From IMG/VR virus record IMGVR_UViG_3300042691_016892, positions 1 to 32,996 of that record: 32,996 nt of DNA; one strand, written 5' to 3'. Source of the DNA: a virus. Position numbers and translations under genes: made by a program. Numbering within the stretch: the first letter of the stretch is position 1; each line of letters opens with the position of its first letter. The notes below the pieces were generated by a model, which worked only from the letters and a program-made list of their open reading frames with translations, was not told the origin of the DNA and searched no databases. Below are positions 1-32,996 of the stretch, piece after piece.

Positions 1-327
1 CGTCGTCGTTTCCAAAGCGATCAAGGGGGAACCGTGGGCGGTCGTGTTCATTGCCGAGCGGATGGAAGGTAAGGTGCGGGACAATCTCAAGATCGAACAC
101 GGGCAGACGCTGCAAATCGTCGAGGAGCTTGTCGAGGCTCCGGGGCAAGTGTTAGAGATGACGCCGGATGACGAGACAACGCCGACAACAACGGAGCAAG
201 CATGAAAGTCGAAATGTGGTCGATTGATAAGGTGATCCCGTACGCACGCAACCCGAGAAAGAACGACGCCGCGGTGCCGAAGGTGATGGCATCGCTGAAG
301 GAATACGGATTCAGGCAACCAATCGTT
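1..327. repeat. Left copy of imperfect terminal direct repeat
   Basis: Bases 1-327 align without gaps to 32670-32996. Over the DUF5681 part (1-201) I count 4 mismatches (positions 70, 166, 184, 200). Over the ParB part (202-327) I count 24 mismatches in 126 bases. The repeat covers the end of one gene and the start of the next, so it behaves like the overlap of a circular or terminally redundant genome, but with two different alleles at the ParB end. Confidence 0.9.
2..205 (+). CDS. DUF5681-type protein (candidate small terminase), C-terminal fragment, left copy
   Basis: An open frame enters from the window edge and ends at TGA 203-205, giving 67 residues nearly identical to the C-terminal half of the complete gene at 32422-32874. 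It ends in an acidic, Thr-rich tail. The stop overlaps the ATG of the ParB gene (ATGA, 202-205), so the two are probably translationally coupled. It lacks the N-terminal basic domain only because the window begins inside the gene. Whether it is a separate second gene or the same gene seen twice across a circular genome cannot be decided here; the latter is more likely. Confidence 0.75.
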   Translation, partial: VVVSKAIKGEPWAVVFIAERMEGKVRDNLKIEHGQTLQIVEELVEAPGQVLEMTPDDETTPTTTEQA

Positions 328-975
328 GTCGACAAGGAGGGCGTCGTGATCGTCGGGCATACGCGACTGAAGGCGGCGCAGCAGCTAGGCATGAACGAGG
401 TGCCAGTCCACATCGCAACAGGGCTGACCGCTTCACAGGTCAAGGCGTACCGCATCGCGGACAACCGGACCAGCGAGGAGGCCGAGTGGGATCAGGAGTT
501 GCTCGGGCTGGAATTGTCCGACCTGCGGGAAGCGGACTTCGACTTGAACCTGACAGGCTTCGACGGCGACACAATCGAGCAGGCGTTGAACCCGGACGAA
601 CCAGCTACATCAGATGGAACATACACCAGAAAGGTCGAGGCACCTGCGTATCAGATAACTGGAGAAAAGCCGGACATCACTGCGCTATACGACAAGTCGA
701 GATATGATCAACTTGTACGCGAGATCAACTCATCATCTATGACTGATGAGCAAAAGCAATTTCTGTTGCTAGCTGCAACAAGGCATATCGTATTTGATTA
801 TCAGAACATTGCAGAGTTCTATGCTCACTCGGATGCATCGATGCAAAAGCTGATGGAGGATAGTGCTCTCATCATCATTGATTTCAATAGGGCTATCGAG
901 CTTGGTTTTGTTCGCCTATCAGATCAGGTCAAAGAGCAATACTCAAAGGACAACAGCGGTGTGTCAGATGAGTGA
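202..975 (+). CDS. ParB/Spo0J-like N-terminal domain protein with an unknown C-terminal domain, DNA-modification linked
   Basis: The protein has 257 residues. Residues 1-130 form a ParB-like domain: NPRKND at 17-22, GFRQPIVVD at 36-44, GHTRLKAA at 52-59 and IADNRT at 85-90. In phages this domain usually sits at the N-terminus of DNA methylases, but no methylase motifs follow here. Instead, residues ~140-250 form a mostly helical region starting TRKVEAPAY and containing TARHIVF-like and SALIIIDFNRAIE-like stretches. I associate this type of tail with phage ParB proteins sitting next to TET-associated glycosyltransferases; that association is recall, not a search. The DNA becomes visibly AT-richer after about base 640. 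The gene overlaps the glycosyltransferase start by 8 bases. A role in DNA recognition or processing during base hypermodification is inferred. Confidence 0.8.
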   Translation: MKVEMWSIDKVIPYARNPRKNDAAVPKVMASLKEYGFRQPIVVDKEGVVIVGHTRLKAAQQLGMNEVPVHIATGLTASQVKAYRIADNRTSEEAEWDQELLGLELSDLREADFDLNLTGFDGDTIEQALNPDEPATSDGTYTRKVEAPAYQITGEKPDITALYDKSRYDQLVREINSSSMTDEQKQFLLLAATRHIVFDYQNIAEFYAHSDASMQKLMEDSALIIIDFNRAIELGFVRLSDQVKEQYSKDNSGVSDE

Positions 976-1837
976 GCGGATATTCTCTGTCATAATCGTA
1001 TCTCATAACCGAGCCGATCGGATTGTCACTGCAAAGACATTGCAGCGTGAAGGCTATACGGGTCGCGTCATCATCCTAATAGACGATGAGGACAAGTCAG
1101 CAGCAGAGTATCACAAGCGATATCCGGGACAGGTTCGCGTGTTTTCTAAAAGAGAAATGGTCGGAACATTTGACCTTGGGGATAATATCCAGAAAAGAAA
1201 CACTGTCACATTCGCACGCAATGCAGCATGGAGTATTGCGCGAAAAGAGGGACTCACTCACTTCCTGTTGCTTGACGACGATTATGTCGATTTTCGGTAT
1301 AAGTCAGACGACAACCATCAATACATCGACAATGCCGATATACACGACCTTGATAGTCTGTTCCAATACACGCTCGACTTCCTAGATTCATCAAATGCTA
1401 TCTGCGTTGCATATTCTCAAGGTGGCGACTTTATGGGCGGAGGTGCTGGCAATTTCGCGAAGTCAGTAAGACTATCTCGAAAGTGTATGAATACCTTTTT
1501 CTGTCGAGTAGATCGTCCATTCACATTTATGGGCAGAATGAATGAGGATGTGAATACATACGTCAGAAATGCCATATGCGGGAAGCTCATGTTCACCATC
1601 AATATGCTCGCTGTAAATCAAACACAGACACAAGCAAACGCAGGCGGACTGACTGATATGTACTTGCAGTTCGGAACATACGTGAAAAGCATGTTCACTG
1701 TCATGTATGCACCATCATGCTGTAAGGTGACGGAAATGGGAACATCGCATCGCCGCCTTCATCATAAAATCTCGTGGAGACATTGCGCCCCCAAAATTGT
1801 TTCAGAATCATTGAGAAAATCGCGAAGCGATGCGTGA
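968..1837 (+). CDS. TET-associated-type glycosyltransferase (TAGT/GREB1 family), putative DNA base glycosyltransferase
   Basis: The protein has 289 residues from ATG 968, which overlaps the ParB stop by 8 bases. Visible motifs are SHNRADR (12-18) at the start of a GT-A-like Rossmann core, an acidic IDDED (38-42), TFARNAAW (81-88), the probable metal/nucleotide-sugar DDDY (103-106), GRMNEDVN (189-196), and a C-terminal block MGTSHRRLHHKISW (257-270). Together these match the TAGT family, known from phages where it is proposed to put sugars on hydroxymethylpyrimidines in DNA; GREB1 carries a eukaryotic relative. No TET/JBP dioxygenase, C5-methylase or hydroxymethylase gene was seen elsewhere in the window, so the acceptor base is unknown. 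The gene is clearly AT-richer than its neighbours (21 of 60 GC at 1141-1200). Confidence 0.83.
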   Translation: MSERIFSVIIVSHNRADRIVTAKTLQREGYTGRVIILIDDEDKSAAEYHKRYPGQVRVFSKREMVGTFDLGDNIQKRNTVTFARNAAWSIARKEGLTHFLLLDDDYVDFRYKSDDNHQYIDNADIHDLDSLFQYTLDFLDSSNAICVAYSQGGDFMGGGAGNFAKSVRLSRKCMNTFFCRVDRPFTFMGRMNEDVNTYVRNAICGKLMFTINMLAVNQTQTQANAGGLTDMYLQFGTYVKSMFTVMYAPSCCKVTEMGTSHRRLHHKISWRHCAPKIVSESLRKSRSDA

Positions 1838-3069
1838 AAACAGTAATATCGCTCCACTATGCACAGCACCGCTTCAGGCGTTCATCCGCAATATACCGCG
1901 GATTCGTCGGCGGACGTGGAGCTGGCAAGTCGTTTGTCGGCGCGTATGACCTGATCCGGCGGGCGCGTCCGGGCAGGCTGTACATGGTGGCAGCTCCAAC
2001 CTATCCGATGCTGCGCGACTCATCGCTGCGGGCGTTCGAGACGTTCGCCCGGTCGATCAACTACCTGCGCGAGTTCAGCCGCGGCGATATGCGAGCCGTC
2101 CTTGGCAACGGTGCTGAAATCCTGTTCCGGTCCGCTGATGAACCCGAGCGGCTCCGCGGGCCTAACCTATCCGGCGCGTGGATGGATGAGGCATCGATCA
2201 TGCACCGCGATGCGTACGACATTATGATTGCGTGTTTGCGCGAGGCTGGCGAACAGGGCTGGTTATCTGCGACCTTTACGCCGAAAGGCCGGGCGCATTG
2301 GACCTACGAAGTCTTTGGCGATCCTGACCGCGAAAACGTCGAGCTGTTTCATGCGAAGACACGCGACAACCCATTCTTGCCGCAGTCGTTCGCGGATACG
2401 CTTGCCGGGCAGTACACATCCGCGTTTGCTGCGCAGGAGATCGGCGGCGAGTTTGTTGACCTGCGGGGAAACATCGCTCAACGGCAATGGTTCCCGGTCA
2501 TCGAGGCGGCACCGCATGAGGCGCAGCACCGCGTCCGGGCGTGGGACTTTGCCGCGTCAGAACGCACGTCCGCGGACTTTACCGTCGGCACGCTGATGAG
2601 CGTGAGCGGCGGCATCTACACCATCGAACACGTTGTCAGGGAAAAGACCGGACCCGCGGGAGTCGAGGAATTGTTGCGACAGACCGCGGCGTCAGACGGT
2701 CCGCACGTTCCGATTGTGCTTGAGCAGGAGGGCGGATCATCCGGCAAGATGATGGCGGCGTCGATGGTTCGGATGCTCGCAGGCTACAACGTCCGAGCGG
2801 TCAGGCCGTCCGCGGACAAGGTGACGCGGGCAATGCCCATGTTCGCACAGGCGCAGGCGGGCAACGTCCGGCTCGTTTCTGGTTCGTGGGTCAAGTCATG
2901 GCTCGACGAGATTTCTATATTCCCGAACGGCGAACACGACGACCAAGTTGACAGCGCGTCCTCGGCGTTCTCCAGTCTTGCCAAACCACTGCCGACTGTG
3001 CCACAACCGCTCGGAGGCCGGATGCGTGCGGCAATCATCACGCGAGGCTCTAGGGAGGTGATCGCATGA
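1834..3069 (+). CDS. terL: Terminase large subunit (packaging ATPase and nuclease)
   Basis: The chosen GTG at 1834 gives 411 residues and a GTGA overlap with the glycosyltransferase stop. A longer GTG start at 1774 exists but would overlap that gene by 64 bases. Residues 26-33 are the Walker A GGRGAGKS, 115-120 the Walker B AWMDEA, and 145-152 the coupling motif SATFTPKG. The RNase-H-like nuclease has RAWDFA (Asp 238) and the late HDDQVD at about 368-373. The N-terminal LHYAQHRFRRS stretch fits the usual lead-in to the ATPase. The protein drives DNA into the prohead and cuts the concatemer. It sits directly before the portal gene with an ATGA overlap. Confidence 0.96.
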   Translation: MKTVISLHYAQHRFRRSSAIYRGFVGGRGAGKSFVGAYDLIRRARPGRLYMVAAPTYPMLRDSSLRAFETFARSINYLREFSRGDMRAVLGNGAEILFRSADEPERLRGPNLSGAWMDEASIMHRDAYDIMIACLREAGEQGWLSATFTPKGRAHWTYEVFGDPDRENVELFHAKTRDNPFLPQSFADTLAGQYTSAFAAQEIGGEFVDLRGNIAQRQWFPVIEAAPHEAQHRVRAWDFAASERTSADFTVGTLMSVSGGIYTIEHVVREKTGPAGVEELLRQTAASDGPHVPIVLEQEGGSSGKMMAASMVRMLAGYNVRAVRPSADKVTRAMPMFAQAQAGNVRLVSGSWVKSWLDEISIFPNGEHDDQVDSASSAFSSLAKPLPTVPQPLGGRMRAAIITRGSREVIA

Positions 3070-6536: not shown

Positions 6537-7457
6537 ATGCCACTTCGTACCGTTTCCAACATCAATCAGACCCTGACGAACTACGCGCAGGGGCTCGCGC
6601 AGGATCGCCGCTCCGCTCTTGCCGACTTCATTTCCCCGGTCGTCCGCGTCGCCGCGTCGATCGGTCAGTTCAAGAAGTTCAGCGAGAAGAACGATTTCGC
6701 GGTGTACTCGACGGCTCGCGCTGTCGGTGGTTCCGCGACCCGTATCGTGTTCGACGCCAGCGACGCGACCTACAACTGCTTGCCGCAGGCGTTGGAAATC
6801 GCGATCGATGACGCGGAGCGTGCCGCTTCCGGCGAGGATCAGCTCGGCATTGAGCAGAGCAAGGTCGCCAGCGTCGTGTCCGCCGCTCTGCTGGCGCACG
6901 AGGATCAGGTGTTCAGCGCGATCAAGTCGGCGGTTTCGGCTGTCGGCGGCGTCGGCGTGTGGACCTCGGCCAGCAACGACCCCATCGCGGAAATCGACTC
7001 GCAGATCGAGACGATCGCCACGAACACGGGCATCATGCCGAACCGGATCGTGTTCGGTTTGGGCGCGTGGACCAAGTTCCGCAACCATCCGAAGGTCGTC
7101 GCCAAGTTCCCCGGCGCGGCGATTGTCGGCGTCACCACGCAGCAGGCGGCTTCGCTGCTCCTGAACCCCGGCATCGAGGTCCGCGTCGGCGTGATGGGCA
7201 AGGACTCGGCCAAGCTGGGCAACGCCAAGAGCGCGACCAACGTCGTCGGCAGCGAGGTGTTCGTGTTCATCGCGAACGACGCCGCCACGGTGTACGATCC
7301 GTCCTTCGCCAAGTGCTTCATGGCTGGGCAAGGCGGCGTGACCAGCGTCCGCGAATATCGTGATGAATCCGCCCGCAGCGACATCTACGCTGTGGACTGG
7401 GCTCGCGACATTCAGGTCGTTTCCACGGCTTGCGCGAAGCGTATCACCGTCAGCTGA
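6537..7457 (+). CDS. Major capsid protein
   Basis: The protein has 306 residues and a strong leader (AAGGAGGAACCACA before ATG). It is placed after portal, protease and decoration genes, where the major capsid gene belongs. Visible features are an N-terminal FISPVVRVAASIGQFKKF strand region, a central helix-rich segment with a DQVFSAIKSA stretch, the NRIVFGLGAWTKFRNHPKV stretch common in DUF2184/Mu-gpT-like and related HK97-fold capsids, and a C-terminal VREYRDESARSDIYAVDWARDI stretch. The exact capsid family was not resolved by eye. Codon use is the most GC3-rich of the region, as expected for a highly expressed gene. Confidence 0.88.
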   Translation: MPLRTVSNINQTLTNYAQGLAQDRRSALADFISPVVRVAASIGQFKKFSEKNDFAVYSTARAVGGSATRIVFDASDATYNCLPQALEIAIDDAERAASGEDQLGIEQSKVASVVSAALLAHEDQVFSAIKSAVSAVGGVGVWTSASNDPIAEIDSQIETIATNTGIMPNRIVFGLGAWTKFRNHPKVVAKFPGAAIVGVTTQQAASLLLNPGIEVRVGVMGKDSAKLGNAKSATNVVGSEVFVFIANDAATVYDPSFAKCFMAGQGGVTSVREYRDESARSDIYAVDWARDIQVVSTACAKRITVS

Positions 7458-7476
7458 TAACAGGAGGAACCACAGA

Positions 7477-7845
7477 ATGAAGAAGGCATTGACCATCGTT
7501 GCGGCATTGATCGCGGGCGCGGCTTTCGCCGAGGTTCCGCACAAGGCGACGGCTTCGTTCGCTCTGGGCGCGGCCACGATCGAGAACACCAAGGACTACG
7601 TCGTTTGGACTCCGAAGACGATCGACGTATCCGGCGTGCTCCCGGCGGCGGCTACCGGAACGGTGAAGCATGTCGAGGACGGCATCACGAATACCGTTGC
7701 GACGATCACAGTCGCCAGCGGAGTCGGATCGACGACCGTCACGAACGGACCGTACTTGTTCAAGGGCGGTAAGCTGGTGTTCTCCGCTTTCGGAACGAAC
7801 GCCGCTGCTGGCTCCGTCAAGGTCGTGTTCACGCAGTATCCCTGA
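7477..7845 (+). CDS. Small exported protein of unknown function (signal peptide)
   Basis: Start ATG 7477 is chosen because CAGGAGGAACCACA lies just upstream, nearly the same leader as the capsid gene; a longer frame from 7360 would overlap the capsid gene. The protein has 122 residues. The first 18 residues are a textbook Sec signal peptide (MKK, then a hydrophobic core, then GAAFA before EV). The remainder is beta-rich and Thr/Val-rich with GTVKHVEDG and TQYP at the end. A signal peptide directly after the major capsid gene is unusual. It could be a decoration or head-fibre protein that passes the inner membrane, or a host-envelope protein made late. Function is not known. Confidence 0.8.
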   Translation: MKKALTIVAALIAGAAFAEVPHKATASFALGAATIENTKDYVVWTPKTIDVSGVLPAAATGTVKHVEDGITNTVATITVASGVGSTTVTNGPYLFKGGKLVFSAFGTNAAAGSVKVVFTQYP

Positions 7846-7925: not shown

Positions 7926-8369
7926 ATGGCGTGGGTGGAAATCACAGAGGCGGACGTGCAAACCCGATTGGCGGGTGCCGAGCTTTCCGCATATCGCAGC
8001 GCAGCAAAGGCGTCGGGTCAGGCTGACCCGCTCTCCGAAATCATCACCGCCGTCGTCGACGAGGTGCGCGGGTATATCGCCGCTTGTGACCGGAACACAC
8101 TCGGCGCAGGCACGACGATTCCGAGCAAGCTGAAATCCGCCACGCTCAACCTCATACGCTATCGGCTCATCACGCGGTTGCCGATCGCCATTTCCGACGA
8201 GCGTAAGGAGGAGTACCGGGACGCGATCAACCTGCTGGAGCGCGTATCCGATTGCCGTTTCGCGGTCGAGGATCCGATCACAGAAAGCACCGAGACAATC
8301 GCATCGGCCAAGCCGCTTATGGGCGAGCGGACGTTGACCTATAACCGCGACAATCAGGACGGAGCATGA
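7926..8369 (+). CDS. Head-completion/adaptor protein, DUF1320 (Mu gp36-like)
   Basis: The protein has 147 residues. The opening WVEITEADVQTRLAGAEL stretch, the ADPLSEIITAVVDEVRGYI helix and the LNLIRYRLITRLP helix match DUF1320/Mu gp36 proteins, which connect the portal to the tail or close the head. The preceding hairpin and the GGAGGG at 7914-7919 suggest that translation restarts here. Its stop overlaps the next start (ATGA at 8366-8369), tying it to the fibre genes although these are normally far from head-completion genes. Confidence 0.8.
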   Translation: MAWVEITEADVQTRLAGAELSAYRSAAKASGQADPLSEIITAVVDEVRGYIAACDRNTLGAGTTIPSKLKSATLNLIRYRLITRLPIAISDERKEEYRDAINLLERVSDCRFAVEDPITESTETIASAKPLMGERTLTYNRDNQDGA

Positions 8370-10312
8370 CAACAACCGCACGCTGGATCGCTTGGCTGTT
8401 TCTCCCGGCGATGATATTCGCGCAGACGCCGCTGGATATCCGGACCATCACGCGGACAAACAACATCCAAGACACGCGGACCAAGCCGCTGGTCTCGTGG
8501 TATCAGGGTGAAAAGGTTCAATATGACCTGTTCATCCGCAGCAACACGAACGCCGTGTACGTTCCATCGACCGCCGTTCCGATCTGGTATGCGACGGATG
8601 ACACGCTCACGAACTATTTCCTGTTCTGGACAGGGACCGTCATAAACGCCGCAGGAGGGCATGTCCGCTTTGTTCTGCCGTCGGAGTATAGTGCGTTGAC
8701 GGTCAAGACCTACGAGGCGGCTACGGTCATTTATGACGGACTGCCGAGCAATCAGCCGCCGCGCATCGTGGGCGATAGGTTGCAGGCTCGCGTCCTGTGG
8801 TCGCCGCACTACTCCGGCATCTACCGAGGGCCGATCGCCAACCTGACCAACTACCCGCTGGACTCCGGGACGGTCGTTTTCCCGTCGTTCTGGTCGCAGT
8901 ACAAGCCGGACATCCTCGCGCAGCTCAACCTCGACACGAACACGATCACGGGAATCATCACCAACAACACGCTAACGTCCAACGCTCTGGTCGCCGCTGT
9001 GGGGGTCGAGTCTAGCCTACGGGTCGGACTCGAGGCAGCGGTCACATCTTGGCAGGTAAAAGCGCAGGCGGATTTGTCCTACGTATCCAACCTCGCGGAG
9101 ACTGCGACCAGCATCAACTCGGCGCAGGCGGCAAACGCGATCGACCTGTCGAATCGGATAGTCACGGCGCAGGCGACTGGGGATCTCGCGTACTTGGTCG
9201 GGACCGCAGGCAGCAACCTAGCGTACACGGCGAATACGGTTGCGGTTTCGGCGCAGACGACGGGAACGGTAGCATGGACGCGGATCCTGCAGGTCTCCAA
9301 TCTGGCAGCTTCGGCTCTGTCTGCGGCGCAAAACGTCAGCACGATCAACACGACTCTGGGCATGGGAACAAACCGCATCGCGTTTGACCAAGGCAGCCTC
9401 GATATCGTGTACGACAAGTTCGCCTATTGGAGCATTCGGTCGACGCTCTCCGGCGTAACGACGCACCTCATGCCGACGTATGGTGAGCTGCAAGCGGGAT
9501 CCATGATGAGCATAATCGACACGAACGGGGAAGTCGCCTACGGGCCAACGCGCAACGCATACGCGCTCACCAACTTCTCGTTTTTCGTCGTTGGCTCGGC
9601 CATACAGATCGAGCAGAACGAAACTGGCGCATATTGGAACGTGCAGAACGTCGCGACTGGTTCCCCTGTGTACGTGGAGGCCGATCCGAAATGGACTGCC
9701 GTGTCCAACTCGATTGCGCTTGGCATCATCACGGCGAACACCGCAGTCGCTATCGCTAACGCAGCGACCACATCGGCAGCGGTTGCGCTTTCTACGGCAA
9801 ATGCGGCTACGACTACGGCGGGCGCGGCATATACTCTCGCGGCGTCTGCAGTTCCGCTCAACACTCCGGTCGGGTTCAACCGATCCTTCCCGATGACGAA
9901 TGAGCTGAACTACAGCATCGGCGCGTATGATGGTTCGTCTCCCGGATATATGGTCCTGTCGAATGCCGCTGTTGGGTTTGTGTACGTCAACCCGTGGCAG
10001 GGCAATAGCGGCGATGCGCTGATCTATGACGGCACGAACAAGCTGTGGCGGGCGGCTCCGATCACCTACGCGAACAACGCTGGAAATGCGGACCTGCTCG
10101 GAGGTATCCCGGCGGCTTCATATCTGAACGTCAGCTCATTCCAATCGACGCAGACAAACTACGCTCGTTTCGTCTCGGCGGCTCTCGCGCCTACGGGGTC
10201 AACTGCTTCCGGCGTCAACGGCGAGATGCGAGTCGATTCAACGAACCTGTACCTGTACATCGGGCGGAGCAATCGGTGGCTCCGCATACCGGGGAGTTTC
10301 TCATGGCCTTGA
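8366..10312 (+). CDS. Fibre-like structural protein 1 with signal peptide
   Basis: The protein has 648 residues. Residues 1-19 look like a signal peptide (basic start, WIAWLFLPAMIFA, then QTP). Residues ~20-150 form a beta-rich domain similar in pattern to those of the next two genes. Residues ~190-340 are Ala/Thr/Ser/Asn-rich with heptad-like TANTAV and SAQAAN repeats, as in trimeric fibre shafts. An ATGSPVYVEADPKW block follows (~residue 433). A C-terminal LLGGIPAASYL module and an MRVDSTNLYLYIG stretch near the end are common in tail-fibre tips. It is most likely a receptor-binding or head/tail fibre. Export of such a protein is unexpected. Start ATG 8366 gives the ATGA coupling. Confidence 0.8.
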   Translation: MTTTARWIAWLFLPAMIFAQTPLDIRTITRTNNIQDTRTKPLVSWYQGEKVQYDLFIRSNTNAVYVPSTAVPIWYATDDTLTNYFLFWTGTVINAAGGHVRFVLPSEYSALTVKTYEAATVIYDGLPSNQPPRIVGDRLQARVLWSPHYSGIYRGPIANLTNYPLDSGTVVFPSFWSQYKPDILAQLNLDTNTITGIITNNTLTSNALVAAVGVESSLRVGLEAAVTSWQVKAQADLSYVSNLAETATSINSAQAANAIDLSNRIVTAQATGDLAYLVGTAGSNLAYTANTVAVSAQTTGTVAWTRILQVSNLAASALSAAQNVSTINTTLGMGTNRIAFDQGSLDIVYDKFAYWSIRSTLSGVTTHLMPTYGELQAGSMMSIIDTNGEVAYGPTRNAYALTNFSFFVVGSAIQIEQNETGAYWNVQNVATGSPVYVEADPKWTAVSNSIALGIITANTAVAIANAATTSAAVALSTANAATTTAGAAYTLAASAVPLNTPVGFNRSFPMTNELNYSIGAYDGSSPGYMVLSNAAVGFVYVNPWQGNSGDALIYDGTNKLWRAAPITYANNAGNADLLGGIPAASYLNVSSFQSTQTNYARFVSAALAPTGSTASGVNGEMRVDSTNLYLYIGRSNRWLRIPGSFSWP

Positions 10313-12471
10313 AACGTCTTGCCCTCATCCTCGCGCTCGTCACCTGCTCCGCCTCGGCGCAGGTCTATACGTTCACGAACAATATCCTTTCGCTCGATCC
10401 TAACGCGCATCCGATCGACCTGCAGGATGGCTACCCCTTCACCTACACGCTCACGGCGCGGGAGAACGGCAGCGCGTACAACCTGACCGGGCTCGCGGTG
10501 CAGCAGCGGTATAGCGACACCAACGGCAACTTCCTTCTCGCCTATACCGGGACGATCATCACGGCAACCTCGGGTGTCGTGCGGATCAACGCGACGCCGA
10601 CCGCTCCGCCGTTTCTGCTCAACACGCGGTACGTCGCACGTATTCAGGCTTTCAGCGGCACGAACATGATCGCCACGCTCGCGGAGGATTACGCCGTGGT
10701 GAACGAAAACGTGTACGAGGGCGAGTTTGGATCGTTCTTCCAGACATACGCGACCAACACGGCAAGCCTCGGTATCGTCAGCGCGGCGAGCGTCACCGCA
10801 ACCGTTGTCGGCGCAGGCACCTTTTACGGCAACGGCGCACTCCTCTCCGGAGTCGCAACCGGATCGCCGCTCTATACCGTGGACCTTGCACCCTACGCGA
10901 CCGGGACACCGCTTTATGTAGAGGCGGACCCGATATGGACGGCAGCCTCGACCGGATACTTGCCGCGAGTCACGGCGGCCAGCACCTACGCGACCGGATC
11001 ACCGCTCTACAGGATCACGGCGCAGTCAATCAACCTGACCAACGCGGGCATCGAATCGGCGGACTTTCTGGATCTGGACCTTGCACCTACCGGGGCGGCG
11101 GCTGTCGGGCGGATTCAATGGGACACGGCCAACGGCACCCCGGCGGTAACGCTCACGGGCGGCAACATTACGACTCCGCTGTCGCAGCAGATGGTCGCCT
11201 ATGTGCGGAACGCAGAGACGACGACGATACAGAAGGGCGAAGTCGTGTACCTGTTCGGCGCATCTGGGGATCGGGCAACCGTCAAGCGGGCAAGCTATAC
11301 AGGCGACGCGACCAGCGCAAAGACGTTCGGGCTTGTGCTGGAGGCTATCGCGGCGAACGGACTCGGGTTTATCGGTACGCACGGAATCGCAAACAATATC
11401 GATACGTCCGCTTTCAGCGAAGGCGCGGAGCTGTGGCTTGGACTCAATGGCACGTTGCAGACCAATCGCCCGGTCGCTCCGCTGCACGGCGTCCGCATCG
11501 GCGTCGTTGAAAAGTCGAACGTCGGCGCAGGTCAAATCGCGCTGATGATCCAAAACGGCTACGAGCTGAACGAGCTGCACAACGTATTCATCAACGGCGT
11601 CACAAATGGAGACGTTCTGGCATACAACAGCGCGTCGAACCGCTGGGAGAATTACACGCCGACCGCGGCAGGCATCGCGACCGGGACGCCGCTGTACGAG
11701 GTCACGCTGACAAACTACGCAACGCTGCCGGACCTGATCGCCGTGTCGAATGTGGCGGATTCCGCGCTGTCGACGGCAAACAGCGCATCGACAACGTCCG
11801 CGCTGGCGTACGCAATCGCGGTCGTTGCATCGAACCTTGCCAAGAGCGTCGAGCCTATTGCGACAAACGCGGCGCGGGACGTTCTCGGGCTTGGCGTCGT
11901 AGTAAGCAACAACATCGCAAACCTTGTGACCGTCTCGAACACGCTGCAGAGCGTCAACACGAACTTGCTTGCGGGTATCGCGCTGGCGTCCAATGCGCTG
12001 TATATCGTGTGGACGAATCAAGAGGCGTTGCGCATCGGAGCGGACGCGAGCCTGTCGAACAACGTCGACTCGTTCAACGCAACGCTGACGACGAACCTGA
12101 CGACGGTCAGCAACTACTTCCAGACGAGCTTCACCAGCGAGGCCGCGGCACGCATCAGCGCGGATGCTGCGCTGACGGCTGCGCTCCTATCGGCGCAGGC
12201 GGATTACAGCAATCTGGTGAGCAGCGTCAACGCGGCAACGCTCGACGGCTACGACGGCGCGGACTTTACCCTGCTCACGACGTTCCAATCCTACCAGACG
12301 AACGTCATGCGTCGCGTGTTCAGCTATCCGACCAACGGGCAGATTGCAGGCACGCTCTCCGGCGTCGCGTTCACGAATGCAGGCGGGACAAACATCATCG
12401 CCTTCTATTACGAGAACGCCCGCGGGAGTGGCACGGGCGGATGGGTCGAGGTCATCGGGACGCTGAAATGA
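10303..12471 (+). CDS. Fibre-like structural protein 2 with signal peptide
   Basis: Start ATG 10303 follows GGGGAG at 10291-10296 and overlaps the previous gene by 10 bases; upstream in-frame sequence is a shadow of fibre 1. The protein has 722 residues. The first 20 are a signal peptide ending in SASA before QVY. Next is an Ig-like domain with FTYTLTARENGSAYNLTG, recalling BppU-type N-terminal domains. Several ATGSPLY/ATGTPLYVEADP repeats follow, then a fibre module with QQMVAYVRNAETTTIQKGE and ANGLGFIGTHGIA, widespread in phage fibres. An Ala/Ser/Asn-rich shaft then leads to a C-terminal cap (GYDGADFTLL, then GGWVEVIGTLK). It is probably a paralogue of its neighbours. Confidence 0.82.
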   Translation: MALKRLALILALVTCSASAQVYTFTNNILSLDPNAHPIDLQDGYPFTYTLTARENGSAYNLTGLAVQQRYSDTNGNFLLAYTGTIITATSGVVRINATPTAPPFLLNTRYVARIQAFSGTNMIATLAEDYAVVNENVYEGEFGSFFQTYATNTASLGIVSAASVTATVVGAGTFYGNGALLSGVATGSPLYTVDLAPYATGTPLYVEADPIWTAASTGYLPRVTAASTYATGSPLYRITAQSINLTNAGIESADFLDLDLAPTGAAAVGRIQWDTANGTPAVTLTGGNITTPLSQQMVAYVRNAETTTIQKGEVVYLFGASGDRATVKRASYTGDATSAKTFGLVLEAIAANGLGFIGTHGIANNIDTSAFSEGAELWLGLNGTLQTNRPVAPLHGVRIGVVEKSNVGAGQIALMIQNGYELNELHNVFINGVTNGDVLAYNSASNRWENYTPTAAGIATGTPLYEVTLTNYATLPDLIAVSNVADSALSTANSASTTSALAYAIAVVASNLAKSVEPIATNAARDVLGLGVVVSNNIANLVTVSNTLQSVNTNLLAGIALASNALYIVWTNQEALRIGADASLSNNVDSFNATLTTNLTTVSNYFQTSFTSEAAARISADAALTAALLSAQADYSNLVSSVNAATLDGYDGADFTLLTTFQSYQTNVMRRVFSYPTNGQIAGTLSGVAFTNAGGTNIIAFYYENARGSGTGGWVEVIGTLK

Positions 12472-14102
12472 TCAGGCTCGCGGTCATACTGGCGGCACTC
12501 CTGCCCGTATTCGCAGCGCGGGCGAACGTCTACAGCGTGAGCAACGACGTCGTCACGTTTACCTGCACCGACCGGACCCTGCCCGTCGATCTGCGGTACG
12601 GATTTAGGTTCACGGTCAAGGCGTATCAGGGCGCAACCGTTATCGACCTGTCAAACCGCGTCGTGCGGTATAAGGTGTTCGACCTGCGAGACGGCGTATC
12701 GGTGCAGGAATCCGAGGCGGCAGTTGACATCACGAACGACACGGCAACGGCATCGTTGACGCTCACTGGTATTCAGCCGGGCCAATACGAAGGCAAGATG
12801 CTATCATACAACACCAACGATGTGCTCGTTGCCACGCTCTCATGCGATAGGCTCGCGGTATTCTCCGAGGCGCAGAGCATCGCGTGGACGAATACGCTTC
12901 TGACTGTAACCAACCTCGGCGCGTCCGGCGGCGGCGGTGGATCAACTAGCGTGACCGTGACAAATCTTATTGTCTCGACGAACATCATCAGCGTGACCGT
13001 GACCAACACGGGCGGCGGTGGCGGCGGCTCCGGCACGCTGTCCGGCTTCAACTCGGCCACGACTGGCGGCGTGTTCCTCGTCGTCTCGAACGGCTGGGAC
13101 GCATCGATCACCAACGAGGGCAACGTGTTCACGATCACGACCGGATTGCCAAAAGGCGCGACGGGCGTCAATCAGGTGGCGACGTGGAACGGCACGAACT
13201 GGGTGGCACAGGCACTCGGCGCACCGTCTCCGACTCCATTTGTCGGGACAAACAAGATCCAATGGGCGACCGTCTGGGGCGTGACGAATACGTGGGTCGC
13301 ACCTTCGACGCAGATCCTGTTCACGGCGTGGGGCGCGGGTGGTGGCGCAGCGGCAGGCGGTGCTGGTCATGCGCGGGCGATCTGGGTCGGGTCGGCTGGG
13401 ACCGTGTTCGACATCGTGGTCGGGACGGCGGGCAACTCTACAGCAACCAACAATGGTCCTTTCAACGGATATGGAATAGATGGGGCAGGCGCAGGACGCA
13501 CCAATCACGCCAACGGAGGCGGGGCAACGTATATCGCCATCAGCGGAACCACGAATATAATATTGATCGCAGGTGGGTCGGGTGGTGGTGGAAACTCGGC
13601 AGCAATCGGAGGTCCAGGCGGTGGCTTTTATTTTGGAACCATGAATGGTGGTTCACCAACCACAACGAATATTGCATCTGGTCATGGCGCGTGGGCTTCT
13701 AATGAGTACGGACTAGCGGCAACGGCTGGTACAAACTATGCAATCACAGGTACGATCCAAAATGGATCGTATTTACGAGGAGGAAACGCATCAACAAACG
13801 GCGCAAATGTAGGACTAACTTCATGGCTTGGTGGAGGCGGAGGCGGCTGGTATGGTGGAGCTGGGGCAACAAAGACGAACGCTGCGGCTGGAACTTCTTC
13901 AGGGAATACAGGGGCAGGTGGCGGTGGCGGCCTATCGTATGCCGATACTAACTATGTCACATTCGCGCAACTCATCGCAGGACAGGCAGCGATTAGTGGC
14001 GTACCTGCGGCGCAGGATCACCCAACGTACACCGCAGGACGTGGATTAGGGAGCGCACAAAGCTCCGCAGGCGGAGCAGGCTGCGCGGGAGCAATGTGGT
14101 GA
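12468..14102 (+). CDS. Fibre/adhesin-like protein 3 with signal peptide and glycine-rich tip
   Basis: Start ATG 12468 overlaps the previous stop (ATGA). The protein has 544 residues. Residues 1-19 are a signal peptide ending FAARA before NVY. An Ig-like BppU-type domain follows (FRFTVKAYQGATVIDLSNR), homologous in layout to fibre 2. Two Gly linkers (GGGGGS at ~154 and GGGGGGSG at ~180) lead to a glycine-rich C-terminal domain with AWGAGGGAAAGG, IAGGSGGGG, GGPGGGFYFG, LGGGGGGWYGGAG and AGGGGGLSY segments. This resembles the polyglycine sandwich of T4-like gp38 adhesins. The tip-coding DNA is AT-richer (25 of 60 GC at 13621-13680, against 39 of 60 at 12901-12960), suggesting it was swapped in. 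Likely a receptor-binding adhesin. Confidence 0.8.
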   Translation: MIRLAVILAALLPVFAARANVYSVSNDVVTFTCTDRTLPVDLRYGFRFTVKAYQGATVIDLSNRVVRYKVFDLRDGVSVQESEAAVDITNDTATASLTLTGIQPGQYEGKMLSYNTNDVLVATLSCDRLAVFSEAQSIAWTNTLLTVTNLGASGGGGGSTSVTVTNLIVSTNIISVTVTNTGGGGGGSGTLSGFNSATTGGVFLVVSNGWDASITNEGNVFTITTGLPKGATGVNQVATWNGTNWVAQALGAPSPTPFVGTNKIQWATVWGVTNTWVAPSTQILFTAWGAGGGAAAGGAGHARAIWVGSAGTVFDIVVGTAGNSTATNNGPFNGYGIDGAGAGRTNHANGGGATYIAISGTTNIILIAGGSGGGGNSAAIGGPGGGFYFGTMNGGSPTTTNIASGHGAWASNEYGLAATAGTNYAITGTIQNGSYLRGGNASTNGANVGLTSWLGGGGGGWYGGAGATKTNAAAGTSSGNTGAGGGGGLSYADTNYVTFAQLIAGQAAISGVPAAQDHPTYTAGRGLGSAQSSAGGAGCAGAMW

Positions 14103-15570: not shown

Positions 15571-15707
15571 TTAGATTTCTGGCACTTGCGGTTGTGGCGG
15601 TTGTCATTCTGACAGGTTGCGCGTCGGTTGAGGTGCGCGAGCGTGACGGCTACATTGGACCGCCACGCGATGAGCGCGGCAAGCTGATTCAACCGCCGAC
15701 CTATTGA
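15567..15707 (+). CDS. Tiny lipoprotein (outer-membrane spanin candidate)
   Basis: A 46-residue frame starts at ATG 15567 (ATGA overlap). The sequence opens MIRFLALAVVAVVILTGC: a short n-region, a strong hydrophobic core and lipobox LTGC with Cys at 18. The mature part is 29 residues, charged, with GPPRDERGK and a Pro-rich end (QPPTY). Rz1-type outer-membrane spanins are short, Pro-rich lipoproteins, so this is the better o-spanin candidate of the two lipoproteins here. It lies just before the peptidase gene. Confidence 0.7.
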   Translation: MIRFLALAVVAVVILTGCASVEVRERDGYIGPPRDERGKLIQPPTY

Positions 15708-15715
15708 GGCACACC

Positions 15716-16447
15716 ATGCACCTACCATTCGAGCAGATGATTGGCGTTAAGCGGATGCCCGAATATCAGACGCCCATCATGCTCTGGGCAGACTCTGACG
15801 TTGTACCGCAATCGCACCTGACACGCTTTGCCATTCCGACCGACAACCAGCACCATTTTCCCGCGTGCGCCGGATTCGCAACGGCAAACTGGATCGAGAT
15901 CATGCTGCGGAAAACACACGGGCAGGCGATCCTAAAGCCCGGCGAGCAGATCGACGGCATGGCAATCTGGCGCAAGGCGCGTCGGATGTTCTGGGCGCAT
16001 GAGCCTATCGATTCCGGCGGGTTGTTTATGGATCAGGGCTTTCGGGCCGCGGTCGCGCTTGGAATCTTACCGCCTGACACCGTCGTTGAGATGGTGAACC
16101 TTGGCGTTGCTGACCTATCGCGCAAGCTATGCGATCAGCCCGTCTTGCAAGGCACGACCGTATCAAAGGCATGGAGCGATCCGAACCCGCAGAACGGGCA
16201 TATCTCATTCGCAATTCCTGAACCGGGCGGACATGCGACTTGCATCATCGGCGTGCTGGAGCAGGACAACAACCATTTCATCCTATTTCAAAACAGCTGG
16301 GGCGAACGCTGGGGATGGCACGGCTACGGTATGCTGCGTTCGGATCTGTGGGCGCGCAATCTGCTGGGACCGCTGGCGACGGCTCGCCTGTCGCATCGTT
16401 GGCAGCTCTGGAACGGCTGGCGTGATTATGTCGTGATGGCGAAATGA
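15716..16447 (+). CDS. Papain-like (C1-type) cysteine peptidase
   Basis: ATG 15716 is chosen because GAGG lies 6 bases upstream; a TTG 12 bases earlier is in frame. The protein has 243 residues. Catalytic positions match the papain clan: Gln45 and Cys51 (six apart, as Q19/C25 in papain) in NQHHFPACAGF, His173 in PGGHATCIIGV and Asn193 in FQNSWGERWG. The NSWG block followed by HGYGML is diagnostic. There is no signal or pro-peptide, so the enzyme is cytoplasmic or released by the holin. It stands where the endolysin would be expected between spanin-like and holin genes. It may cut peptide cross-links, host proteins or virion proteins; which one is unknown. Confidence 0.85.
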   Translation: MHLPFEQMIGVKRMPEYQTPIMLWADSDVVPQSHLTRFAIPTDNQHHFPACAGFATANWIEIMLRKTHGQAILKPGEQIDGMAIWRKARRMFWAHEPIDSGGLFMDQGFRAAVALGILPPDTVVEMVNLGVADLSRKLCDQPVLQGTTVSKAWSDPNPQNGHISFAIPEPGGHATCIIGVLEQDNNHFILFQNSWGERWGWHGYGMLRSDLWARNLLGPLATARLSHRWQLWNGWRDYVVMAK

Positions 16448-21840: not shown

Positions 21841-23313
21841 ATGCCCGTCTACACGATAAACGGATCAACGCTCGCACAGTTGAAGATTACCGACGCGGCG
21901 GTGACCTACAAATCCGGGCAGGCTGACGAGCTTGTCGTGACGACGGATGCAAGCGCAACGTCGAATCTTGCAGGCGCAGGGTTGAACGGCATTGTTGAGC
22001 TGTTCAGCGACTCGACGCGCATATTCCGCGGGCGATGGGTCAAGCGCAACCTGACGCGAAGCGGGGACCGCGCACGCTGTCAATGGACGGCATTCGGTCC
22101 GCTGTATGAGTTGGACCAGAACAGCCCGACCGGGCCGGAAAACGATGCCAACGTGCAGCTTGCAAACAACATCAAGTCAACCGTCGAACCGTACATCTCA
22201 CAGAGCGGTCATCTGGAGCTGAATAACTACCTGTGCAACGCGGTCACGATATCGCCCGCGCAACGATTCTATGAGGCGACAAAGGGCGATGTCTTGCGGT
22301 ATCTGCTCGGCTTGCAGGCATCGGCAACGACGTCCGTCATCTATTCTACCAGCACGCCGCTCCTGAACATCGCGGACGATTCACTTTCAAGTCCGTCCGC
22401 GGTCAATATTACTGATGCCATATCATTCAACATCACGACGGAGCAGTCCCTGCTTTCAGGATTTCGCACATCGTATGCAGTCGATACGGAATACGAGTTT
22501 CTGCAATCGGTGGACTATCAGAACCCGGCACCGTCAACGACTTCGACCGCATCGAAAAACTATATCGCGTTGCGTGATACGGTCGGTACCTACGCTCCCG
22601 GCAATCGCATCATGGGCGTTCATCGCGAGATCGAGGGACAGCGGAAAATCCGCAGCTTTACATACAGCGACGGAACCGGGTTGACGCTTGACGGCATCTT
22701 CCGCAACTCGTCGAACTACACGGCAGAGGCGGAGCTGAAATCAATCATCCAGACCGTGAACGGAGATTATCGCGATTGGACCGGAACCATTACGACGACA
22801 GGCGCGAGCCTCTCCGTAATCAAGTGGTTCGGGACCGCTCCGACAAGTGCGTCGATAGGCTCCTACCGCTTTTCAAGTCTTGGCGTTCCGTTCGTGAATA
22901 TGCTGCGACCGGAATATCCATCCGCGCCGTTCGTTGCGCTTGTGCGCGGTCAGATTTATATGCGCTCGGGCGGCTCGACTACTGCGGACTTCGTGGATGT
23001 CACCTTTCCGGCGATCTCCTCGGCGGTCGGCTATCGGGAGTCAATCATCGAGTCATATGCAACGCCCGCGGGCGGTTTGTCATCGCAGGCGTTTGCCAAG
23101 CAGAACGCGACGCGATACGACGGCACCATCAGCGCACGCTTCACTTTTACGCCTAGCGGACTCTATGACGCCGTGACCTACGGAGGGACAACCTACCGCG
23201 GCGTGAAGCAATCATCCTATGATCTCAACAGCGAGATCGTCACTTTCACATTCGGCGCAACGAGCGATCTGTCGATTCAGGATGGCGTGCGCACGCTGCG
23301 CGATCTACGGTAG
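21841..23313 (+). CDS. Tail hub/distal tail protein-like
   Basis: ATG 21841 lies 4 bases after the tape-measure stop; longer upstream frame is a shadow of that gene. The protein has 490 residues, rich in strands and Thr/Ser. An N-terminal VVTTDASATSNLAGAGLNG region and FRGRWVKRNLTRSGDRARCQW and GPLYELDQNSP segments recall baseplate-hub or tail-tip proteins (gp27/gp44-like). The C-terminal third has strands and GTTYRGVKQSSYDLNSEIVTF. It likely forms the tail-tip hub on which the fibres assemble. The gene ends 9 bases inside the opposite-strand NinG-like gene. Confidence 0.6.
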   Translation: MPVYTINGSTLAQLKITDAAVTYKSGQADELVVTTDASATSNLAGAGLNGIVELFSDSTRIFRGRWVKRNLTRSGDRARCQWTAFGPLYELDQNSPTGPENDANVQLANNIKSTVEPYISQSGHLELNNYLCNAVTISPAQRFYEATKGDVLRYLLGLQASATTSVIYSTSTPLLNIADDSLSSPSAVNITDAISFNITTEQSLLSGFRTSYAVDTEYEFLQSVDYQNPAPSTTSTASKNYIALRDTVGTYAPGNRIMGVHREIEGQRKIRSFTYSDGTGLTLDGIFRNSSNYTAEAELKSIIQTVNGDYRDWTGTITTTGASLSVIKWFGTAPTSASIGSYRFSSLGVPFVNMLRPEYPSAPFVALVRGQIYMRSGGSTTADFVDVTFPAISSAVGYRESIIESYATPAGGLSSQAFAKQNATRYDGTISARFTFTPSGLYDAVTYGGTTYRGVKQSSYDLNSEIVTFTFGATSDLSIQDGVRTLRDLR

Positions 23314-23691
23314 CGGAATGTGATCCCGCAAAAGCAACAACGCATTGCGACGTCCGATCAGCTCGCTCGTCTTGATCCGGCTGGCACCCTTGGTCCGGGC
23401 GTACAGGGTATCGAGTCCGCCGATTCCGTAGTAATCGATACAACGGCGAAGGAGCGGGTAGGGGTCGAACTCGTGCCGAAGGTTGCAACCGGAGCACATG
23501 ACGACGGCGTTGGCGAGATCCCATCGGGTGCGATAGCTGACGCGGCTGAAGATGTGGCCGCATTGCGGACGCTCCCGGCTTCCGCAGACGAAACAGGTGT
23601 TGCCGTCTCGCTTGCGGATGACTTCGGAAAAGAGCGCATCCAGATCACGGACGAGACGCTTGCGGATCGGGGCTTTGGGTTTCTTGCTCAT
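23305..23691 (-). CDS. NinG/HNH-like zinc-binding recombination nuclease
   Basis: The minus-strand frame gives 128 residues. CFVCGS, then QCGHIFSRVSYRTRWD, then NAVVMCSGCNLRHEF show the Cys4/His pattern of lambda NinG/Rap-type and HNH-related proteins. The N-terminus is basic (SKKPKAPIRKRLVRD). NinG proteins resolve recombination intermediates and may cut Holliday-like structures. It is the only leftward gene inside the large rightward structural block, and its reverse strand is also fully open for 137 codons. Function suits the RecT/nuclease system located at 25966-27365. Confidence 0.78.
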   Translation of the reverse strand: MSKKPKAPIRKRLVRDLDALFSEVIRKRDGNTCFVCGSRERPQCGHIFSRVSYRTRWDLANAVVMCSGCNLRHEFDPYPLLRRCIDYYGIGGLDTLYARTKGASRIKTSELIGRRNALLLLRDHIPLP

Positions 23692-32421: not shown

Positions 32422-32874
32422 ATGCTACCCTTTCAAGACATGAGCGACGAACAACAGATCAACGCTGACCAGCAGCGAGGAATCAAGGCGTACAGATTCC
32501 GCAAGGGTCAATCGGGCAATCCGAAGGGTAGACCGCCGAAGGCAAGAGCAATCCCGGATATCCTCGCACGCATTACCGCCGAGGACGTACCCGAGCCGTT
32601 GCTGTCCAAGATGCAACAGATGTTTCGTCAGATGCCAGACAACCCGACCATCCTCGAAGCTATCCTGCGCGTCGTCGTTTCCAAAGCGATCAAGGGGGAA
32701 CCGTGGGCGGTCGTGTTCATTGCCGAGCGGATGGAAGGCAAGGTGCGGGACAATCTCAAGATCGAACACGGGCAGACGCTGCAAATCGTCGAGGAGCTTG
32801 TCGAGGCTCCGGGGCAAGTGTTAGAGATGACGCCTGATGACGAGACAACGCCAACAACAACGGAGCAGGCATGA
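32422..32874 (+). CDS. DUF5681-type protein, candidate small terminase (complete copy)
   Basis: The protein has 150 residues from ATG 32422; ATG 32440 (seventh codon) is an equally plausible start, as neither has a clear Shine-Dalgarno. Residues 26-40 read FRKGQSGNPKGRPPK, the DUF5681 signature, a basic DNA-binding stretch. A helical core follows (PEPLLSKMQQMFRQM, AILRVVVSKAIKG, VFIAERMEG) and an acidic, Thr-rich tail. Its place before the ParB/terL genes fits a terminase small subunit. The stop overlaps the ParB start (ATGA, 32871-32874). The 3' 204 bases are ~98% identical to 1-205. Confidence 0.78.
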   Translation: MLPFQDMSDEQQINADQQRGIKAYRFRKGQSGNPKGRPPKARAIPDILARITAEDVPEPLLSKMQQMFRQMPDNPTILEAILRVVVSKAIKGEPWAVVFIAERMEGKVRDNLKIEHGQTLQIVEELVEAPGQVLEMTPDDETTPTTTEQA

Positions 32875-32996
32875 AAGTTGAGATGTGGTCGATTGATAAG
32901 GTGATCCCATACGCACGCAACCCGCGCAAGAATGACGACGCGGTTTCGGTTGTCGCCGCATCGCTGAAAGAGTTTGGCTTCCGGCAACCCATCGTC
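32670..32996. repeat. Right copy of imperfect terminal direct repeat
   Basis: Matches 1-327 at an offset of 32669 bases with no gaps. The identity falls sharply exactly at the ParB start codon (98% before, 81% after), indicating different ParB alleles joined to the same upstream gene. Confidence 0.9.
32871..32996 (+). CDS. ParB-domain protein, second allele, N-terminal fragment
   Basis: Forty-two codons from ATG 32871 to the window edge. The residues match the N-terminus of the 202-975 protein except at five positions (22-42 region: A23D, P26S, K27V, M29A, Y35F), and most nucleotide changes are at third positions. Both copies therefore encode working ParB domains under selection. What follows (same C-terminal domain and glycosyltransferase, or a methylase) lies outside the window. 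Confidence 0.8.
   Translation, partial: MKVEMWSIDKVIPYARNPRKNDDAVSVVAASLKEFGFRQPIV

Follow-up and report, generated by a model that had tools for sequence, protein, structure and literature searches.

A conserved ParB C-terminal domain and a TET-associated-type glycosyltransferase as a candidate two-component effector of phage DNA modification

TET-associated-type glycosyltransferases (TAGTs) whose substrate is known act on hydroxymethylpyrimidines or on their glucosides (PMC13216743, PMC4111573). The T6-type phage enzyme, a member of Pfam family PF20691, carries out the second glucosylation of alpha-glucosyl-hydroxymethylcytosine (PMC13216743, PMC13390438), and further TAGTs belong to the base J pathway and to phage operons of the TET/JBP–TAGT type (Iyer 2013, cited in PMC4111573). 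All of the described TAGT pathways require prior hydroxylation of the base. Solitary TAGT homologues were found in 288 of 753 phage genomes with no alpha-GT or beta-GT, and were proposed to be potentially novel transferases (PMC13216743); the main text of that survey is without ParB, whereas the present analysis identifies both a dedicated partner domain and the unit of exchange. A ParB protein does occur in the thymidine-hypermodification locus of Rhodococcus phage Tonitrus, which consists of ParB, a TET-like protein, aGPT-PPlase2, a kinase and the terminase (PMC11955845). Our literature search, mostly outside the subscription literature, found no publication joining TAGT, ParB and phage, and an earlier ParB–TAGT report may exist. 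Deposited pairs of the two genes are annotated by family names only (‘GREB1-related protein’ in E. coli Rac-type prophages).

The pair described here lies at the start of IMG/VR virus record IMGVR_UViG_3300042691_016892, analysed as one stretch of 32,996 nucleotides (the window; Table 1). As the initial annotation had stated, the ParB and TAGT genes overlap by 8 bases (968–975) directly in front of the terminase gene, which in turn begins 4 bases before the end of the TAGT gene. When the two ends of the window were compared, positions 1–327 proved to duplicate positions 32670–32996, 327 bp with 28 mismatches, of which 24 fall within the start of ParB; the 3′ part of the DUF5681 gene thus recurs at 1–205. 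On this reading the map closes at about 32.67 kb, and two population variants probably meet at the join. The genome had been described as nearly complete, and a TET gene in its missing part was named as one finding that would overturn the idea of a cassette without a hydroxylase. That description was wrong: because the ends overlap, the genome appears to be essentially complete, with no missing part to conceal a hydroxylase, and the proposed refutation no longer applies. No family match to a ParA partner ATPase was obtained among the window open reading frames with Pfam or PHROGs, and the locus is accordingly not classed as ParABS.

Table 1. Features of the cassette and its immediate surroundings, in window coordinates
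Feature	Position	Strand	Details and evidence
ParB gene	202–975	+	257 aa; Pfam ParB_N PF02195 1.8e-6; phrog_620 1.4e-62 over residues 1–242
ParB/Srx N-terminal domain (ParB-N, residues 1–129), exchangeable putative DNA-binding head	202–588	+	Pfam ParB_N; 73% identity to L305 head
ParBC, ~115-aa all-alpha C-terminal domain, proposed obligate TAGT partner	607–972	+	Conservation; AF2; GC3 0.467
TAGT glycosyltransferase gene	968–1837	+	289 aa; ATG 968, stop 1835–1837; PF20691 5.5e-36
Low-GC block coinciding with ParBC and TAGT	649–1860	.	Two-breakpoint likelihood scan
Terminase large subunit (TerL), next gene, context only	1834–3069	+	GTG start 1834; Terminase_6N 1e-14, Terminase_6C 2e-13
DUF5681 gene, immediate upstream neighbour once the map is joined, context only	32422–32874	+	PF18932 7.5e-13
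Start of second, variant ParB-N, same population	32871–32996	+	24/126 bases differ; codons: 13 synonymous, 5 non-synonymous

The earlier call of a TET-associated-type glycosyltransferase is borne out by profile searches, in which the protein matched PF20691 at 5.5e-36 (124.9 bits, against a cut-off of 27.5 bits) and phrog_842 at 1.3e-62. Its family places it in the GT-A class, and the motif residues D104-D105, N192-x-D194 and R263-x-H265-H266 (DD, NxD, RxHH) show conservation of 95% or more over 166 sequences. The T6-type enzyme shares the Pfam family, the GT-A class and the family motifs. The partners differ, since T-even phages make 5-hmC by a thymidylate synthase (TS)-family enzyme, whereas the window has ParBC and no TS. 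In the T4-like phage Aeh1, the TAGT is 24% identical to that of the window, a TS homologue is present in the genome, and neither of the two upstream genes that were searched gave a ParBC match.

ParBC, of about 115 residues, is a previously unnamed domain, distinct at the C-terminus of ParB. Residues 136–257 are strongly conserved over 163 aligned sequences and gave no Pfam match, and Foldseek returned no PDB fold match at E ≤ 1e-3, so the ‘unusual C-terminal domain’ remarked on earlier is real. The domain is predicted to be all-alpha, with AF2 pLDDT above 90 across the core, and the alignment picks out near-invariant residues R194, H195, Y207, E219 and D227, each at least 95% conserved. A known enzyme fold was considered for ParBC and rejected, there being no PDB fold match and only weak PDB profile matches, to designed repeat or coiled-coil-like proteins. 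In a Porphyromonas phage, the partner is degenerate (2.5e-13) and its conserved H is replaced by F, and the accompanying TAGT is only 29% identical. The lack of a PDB fold match and the loss of this H favour an adaptor over a catalyst.

The two genes keep company over a wide range of phages. A tblastn search with the TAGT against annotated phages matched 44 records, and among these matches ParB stands directly upstream of TAGT in Lactobacillus, Salmonella/E. coli, Nocardia, Haloarcula and gut phages. We also scanned sequence collections with ParBC and TAGT profiles, ranking both by resemblance to the window or to its alignment, and so with a bias towards the window's clade: TAGT was present at all 100 loci taken from the ParBC scans (the best 80 of at least 590 viral-contig loci, plus 20 genome-contig loci), nearly always directly downstream, and of 77 new loci from the independent TAGT scan, 74 had ParBC upstream. 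Where the ParBC-scan genes were not directly adjacent, a donor gene or a second TAGT intervened. Of the remaining three loci, two have a TAGT truncated at the end of the contig, and the third (L174) has five TAGTs in a row with ParBC in front. In all, 166 distinct pairs were collected, spanning many bacterial phyla and the haloarchaea.

Within these pairs it is ParBC, and not the ParB-N head, that tracks the glycosyltransferase. ParBC lies within 60 nt of TAGT in 153 of 166; it is fused to ParB-N in 131, stands alone in 22 and is cut in 13. Distances point the same way, the correlation being 0.62 between ParBC and TAGT as against 0.34 between ParB-N and TAGT. At one locus (L203, 2109–8165), two tandem ParBC–TAGT pairs, duplicated as pairs, are flanked by a PolA-type polymerase gene on one side and a clamp-like gene on the other. 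The initial annotation had defined the cassette as ParB plus TAGT; its TAGT part stands, and the standalone ParBC domains (22/166) correct the rest, making ParB-N an exchangeable head. From gene content and spacing, then, the predicted functional unit is ParBC plus TAGT rather than ParB plus TAGT, in near-obligate pairing. No natural ParBC–TAGT fusion was found among the aligned sequences.

Genome context varies around this unit. The same ParBC cassette occurs in Lactobacillus phages c5 and phi jlb1, HHTV-2, Nocardia phage NTR1, Salmonella phage SPF_0923 and E. coli Rac-type prophages, each time in other surroundings. Six unrelated genomes (the window, c5, jlb1, HHTV-2, NTR1 and SPF_0923) were compared by stop-to-stop open reading frames, with HHTV-2 covered to 50.0 of 52.6 kb, and ParB and TAGT were the only genes in common; the idea of a further gene universal among cassette phages was rejected on this result. 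Many other cassettes adjoin the terminase gene on its upstream side. Terminase linkage was likewise rejected as the cause of the pairing, as close TerL relatives are without the cassette. Three arrangements may be recorded for themselves. The row of five tandem TAGTs, with ParBC before it and a cytidylyltransferase after it (L174, 3782–9206), belongs to a 115-kb phage and follows PolA/clamp-like genes and precedes a RecA-like gene. In the tandem locus, the first ParBC–TAGT pair is divergent and its ParBC has H replaced by F. Two standalone pairs have a separate ParB-N gene about 3 kb downstream (L121, 10548–11039; L106, 7799–8302).

Base composition indicates how the window phage may have come by the unit. 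GC content is 0.444 in the block covering ParBC and TAGT compared with 0.592 for the genome (log-likelihood ratio 55.8 in a two-breakpoint scan), making this the lowest-GC 1.2 kb of the genome, and the boundary falls inside the ParB gene: GC3 is 0.805 in ParB-N, which is genome-like, 0.467 in ParBC and 0.471 in TAGT. Of 163 loci compared, 8 show a change in the same direction that exceeds 0.2 from ParB-N to ParBC and none shows one in the opposite direction, and no locus of the 163 has a step of this size between ParBC and TAGT.

The nearest relatives of the window ParB-N are the heads of ParB–methyltransferase fusions. Among the best 80 viral loci for ParB-N, a DPPY-type motif follows the head in 54 and ParBC in none. 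The closest (L305), upstream of a terminase, is 73% identical over residues 1–129, continues into N6_N4_Mtase (2.6e-27), and its identity to the window ParB ends at the ParB-N/ParBC junction. Such phage fusions (phrog_498; PF02195 with PF01555) hold the same position before the terminase, with the methyltransferase half in place of ParBC and TAGT. No methyltransferase domain was matched by Pfam in the C-terminal half of the window ParB, which is ParBC. On the simplest view, a resident ParB head has apparently lost a methylation effector and gained a glycosylation effector in its stead, so that phages may trade methylation for glycosylation on one targeting head. This swap is the strongest argument that the substrate of the unit is DNA.

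The Tonitrus locus, like that of the window, opens a DNA-modification operon with a ParB-N protein upstream of the terminase; unlike the window, it has TET and lacks ParBC and TAGT. We looked for ParBC in it and did not find it.

No TET/JBP enzyme, C5-methylase, TS-family enzyme or hydroxymethyltransferase was found among the 50 window open reading frames (10 + 40) with Pfam and PHROGs, and six-frame searches of the record were negative for Tet_JBP and thymidylate synthase, in agreement with the initial annotation. DNA_methylase, the C5-cytosine methyltransferase family, likewise had no match among the window open reading frames, and neither Pfam nor PHROGs identified among them a GT-B alpha-GT or beta-GT that could add a first glucose. 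In other ParBC–TAGT records, many of them fragments in which a single absence weighs little, Tet_JBP was found in 0 of 53, searched without a control, and then in 0 of 15 further records (68 in total), the latter searched with the window and with Tonitrus as positive control (7.7e-10). The TET/JBP–TAGT operons likewise use a TAGT as their glycosylating enzyme, but the window and these 68 records are without the oxygenase, and the missing hydroxylase is therefore not a gap of the window genome alone. TS was found in 0 of 53 relatives and in 2 of 10 further records, Aeh1 and the ParBC–TAGT phage Vibrio pv27; C5-methylase was found in 3 of 53 relatives, and in two more loci (L010 and L098) by similarity. 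Known hydroxylation enzymes thus appear to be absent from the clade, with rare exceptions.

Genes for sugar handling do accompany the cassette in some relatives. A UDP-galactopyranose mutase (TIGR00031) is encoded immediately after TAGT; it scores above cut-off in L033 and L042, and L060 is similar. In about ten marine loci, ParBC and TAGT are separated by a fusion of His-phosphatase and cytidylyltransferase, which in L099 is itself fused to ParBC. A radical SAM (SPASM) enzyme directly follows TAGT in eight gut-type loci (L008, at 6859–7821, L018, L030, L032 and L036–L039), and one TAGT (L040) has an N-terminal P-loop kinase-like part by a weak match. These neighbours would fit transfer of sugar from varied donors, plus further decoration.

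On balance we favour the reading that ParBC–TAGT is a two-component effector that adds sugar to phage DNA and uses no separate hydroxylase of a known kind. TAGT, as a GT-A enzyme, and ParBC, as its small dedicated partner, would work as one functional unit, with ParBC holding TAGT to ParB-N or to DNA in a putative physical complex, and the ParB-N head, fused to ParBC in most phages, would bring the unit to phage DNA. Sugar would come from the host NDP-sugar pool in the window phage and from phage-made NDP-sugars in some relatives, and TAGT would transfer it onto the DNA. The acceptor would be either a canonical base, glycosylated directly, or one made by the ParBC–TAGT pair itself. The modification would probably serve as protection against restriction and other defences. 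A glycosyltransferase and partner without a base-preparing enzyme points to an undescribed DNA-modification route, in a clade that is widespread and includes prophages in hundreds of E. coli genomes.

A more specific form of this proposal can be put forward only tentatively: TAGT with ParBC might directly glycosylate a canonical, unhydroxylated base, a one-step route that would yield a nucleoside new to DNA and a module able to replace a methyltransferase on the ParB head. The chief competitor of the favoured reading, which we hold to be rather unlikely, retains the known order of hydroxylation followed by glycosylation, with a new first enzyme. A hydroxylated pyrimidine would be needed and would come from an unrecognised hydroxylase, possibly ParBC itself through R-H...Y...E...D. 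The TAGTs of known substrate all use hydroxymethylpyrimidines or glucosides (PMC13216743, PMC4111573), ParBC occurs throughout the clade and has near-invariant polar residues, and Krischvirus SAP has modified cytosine with no recognisable pathway (PMC13390438). Against ParBC as the hydroxylase stand its size, the lack of a detectable enzyme fold and the H to F change in the Porphyromonas phage partner, which suits an adaptor; against another gene stands the six-genome comparison, although a non-homologous enzyme could vary between phages. Either way, a clade that is without known hydroxylases yet keeps ParBC would hold new base chemistry or a new hydroxylase to find.

That the acceptor is a protein (ParB, terminase, capsid or a host protein), the module regulating packaging or host takeover, seems to us improbable. 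GREB1, a eukaryotic relative of TAGT, has been reported to glycosylate protein, and the radical SAM/SPASM enzymes that adjoin eight cassettes belong to a group that often acts on peptides. However, the ParB head is common to DNA methyltransferases, a ParB-N protein opens the TET thymidine-hypermodification locus, close TerL relatives do without the cassette, and some cassettes lie among replication genes.

The initial annotation, whose observation of a TAGT without a visible hydroxylase has held up and extends to the 68 other records, had offered a host-modified base as acceptor. Supply by the host would account for a phage without a hydroxylase, but the same pair is found in phages of haloarchaea, Nocardia, Lactobacillus, Clostridia, Bacteroidota (including Bacteroidales), Kiritimatiellae and E. 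coli. To our knowledge these hosts have no form of base hydroxylation in common, and the known host DNA marks of E. coli are methyl groups without hydroxyls. With hosts so different, a host-modified base is very unlikely as the general acceptor.

An inactive or incidental pair that merely hitch-hikes is hardly credible: decaying copies exist in the E. coli K-12 Rac prophage (ynaK/ydaY), Lactobacillus phage Ld25A and E. coli NR3736, but conservation of the catalytic and partner residues stands at 95% or more across 166 divergent sequences, and the pair stays joined across phyla.

The decaying copies may themselves be useful. At least 80% of the cassette is present in 885 of 5,426 complete E. 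coli genomes (16%) and part of it in 1,562, counts that reflect sequence coverage and not intact frames, as the broken ParB of NR3736 shows. In K-12 MG1655, the Rac prophage ynaK–ydaY region by trkG (L126, 3878–4481) is a truncated remnant that keeps only the start of ParB-N. In Ld25A (L007, 3–515), a deletion joins the start of ParB to the end of TAGT, giving a natural knock-out to set against the intact cassette of c5; together with this natural intact/deleted pair, the E. coli prophages provide existing test strains.

Three further features of the window lie outside the cassette. A NinG/HNH-like endonuclease gene (23305–23691) is on the minus strand within a run of plus-strand genes. A papain-family cysteine protease is encoded near a holin-like gene (15704–16447; PF00112, 7e-6), the sole such match among the window open reading frames. 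Three consecutive tail-like proteins (8366–14102) have hydrophobic, signal-peptide-like N-termini and similar opening domains, which is unusual among phage tail genes.
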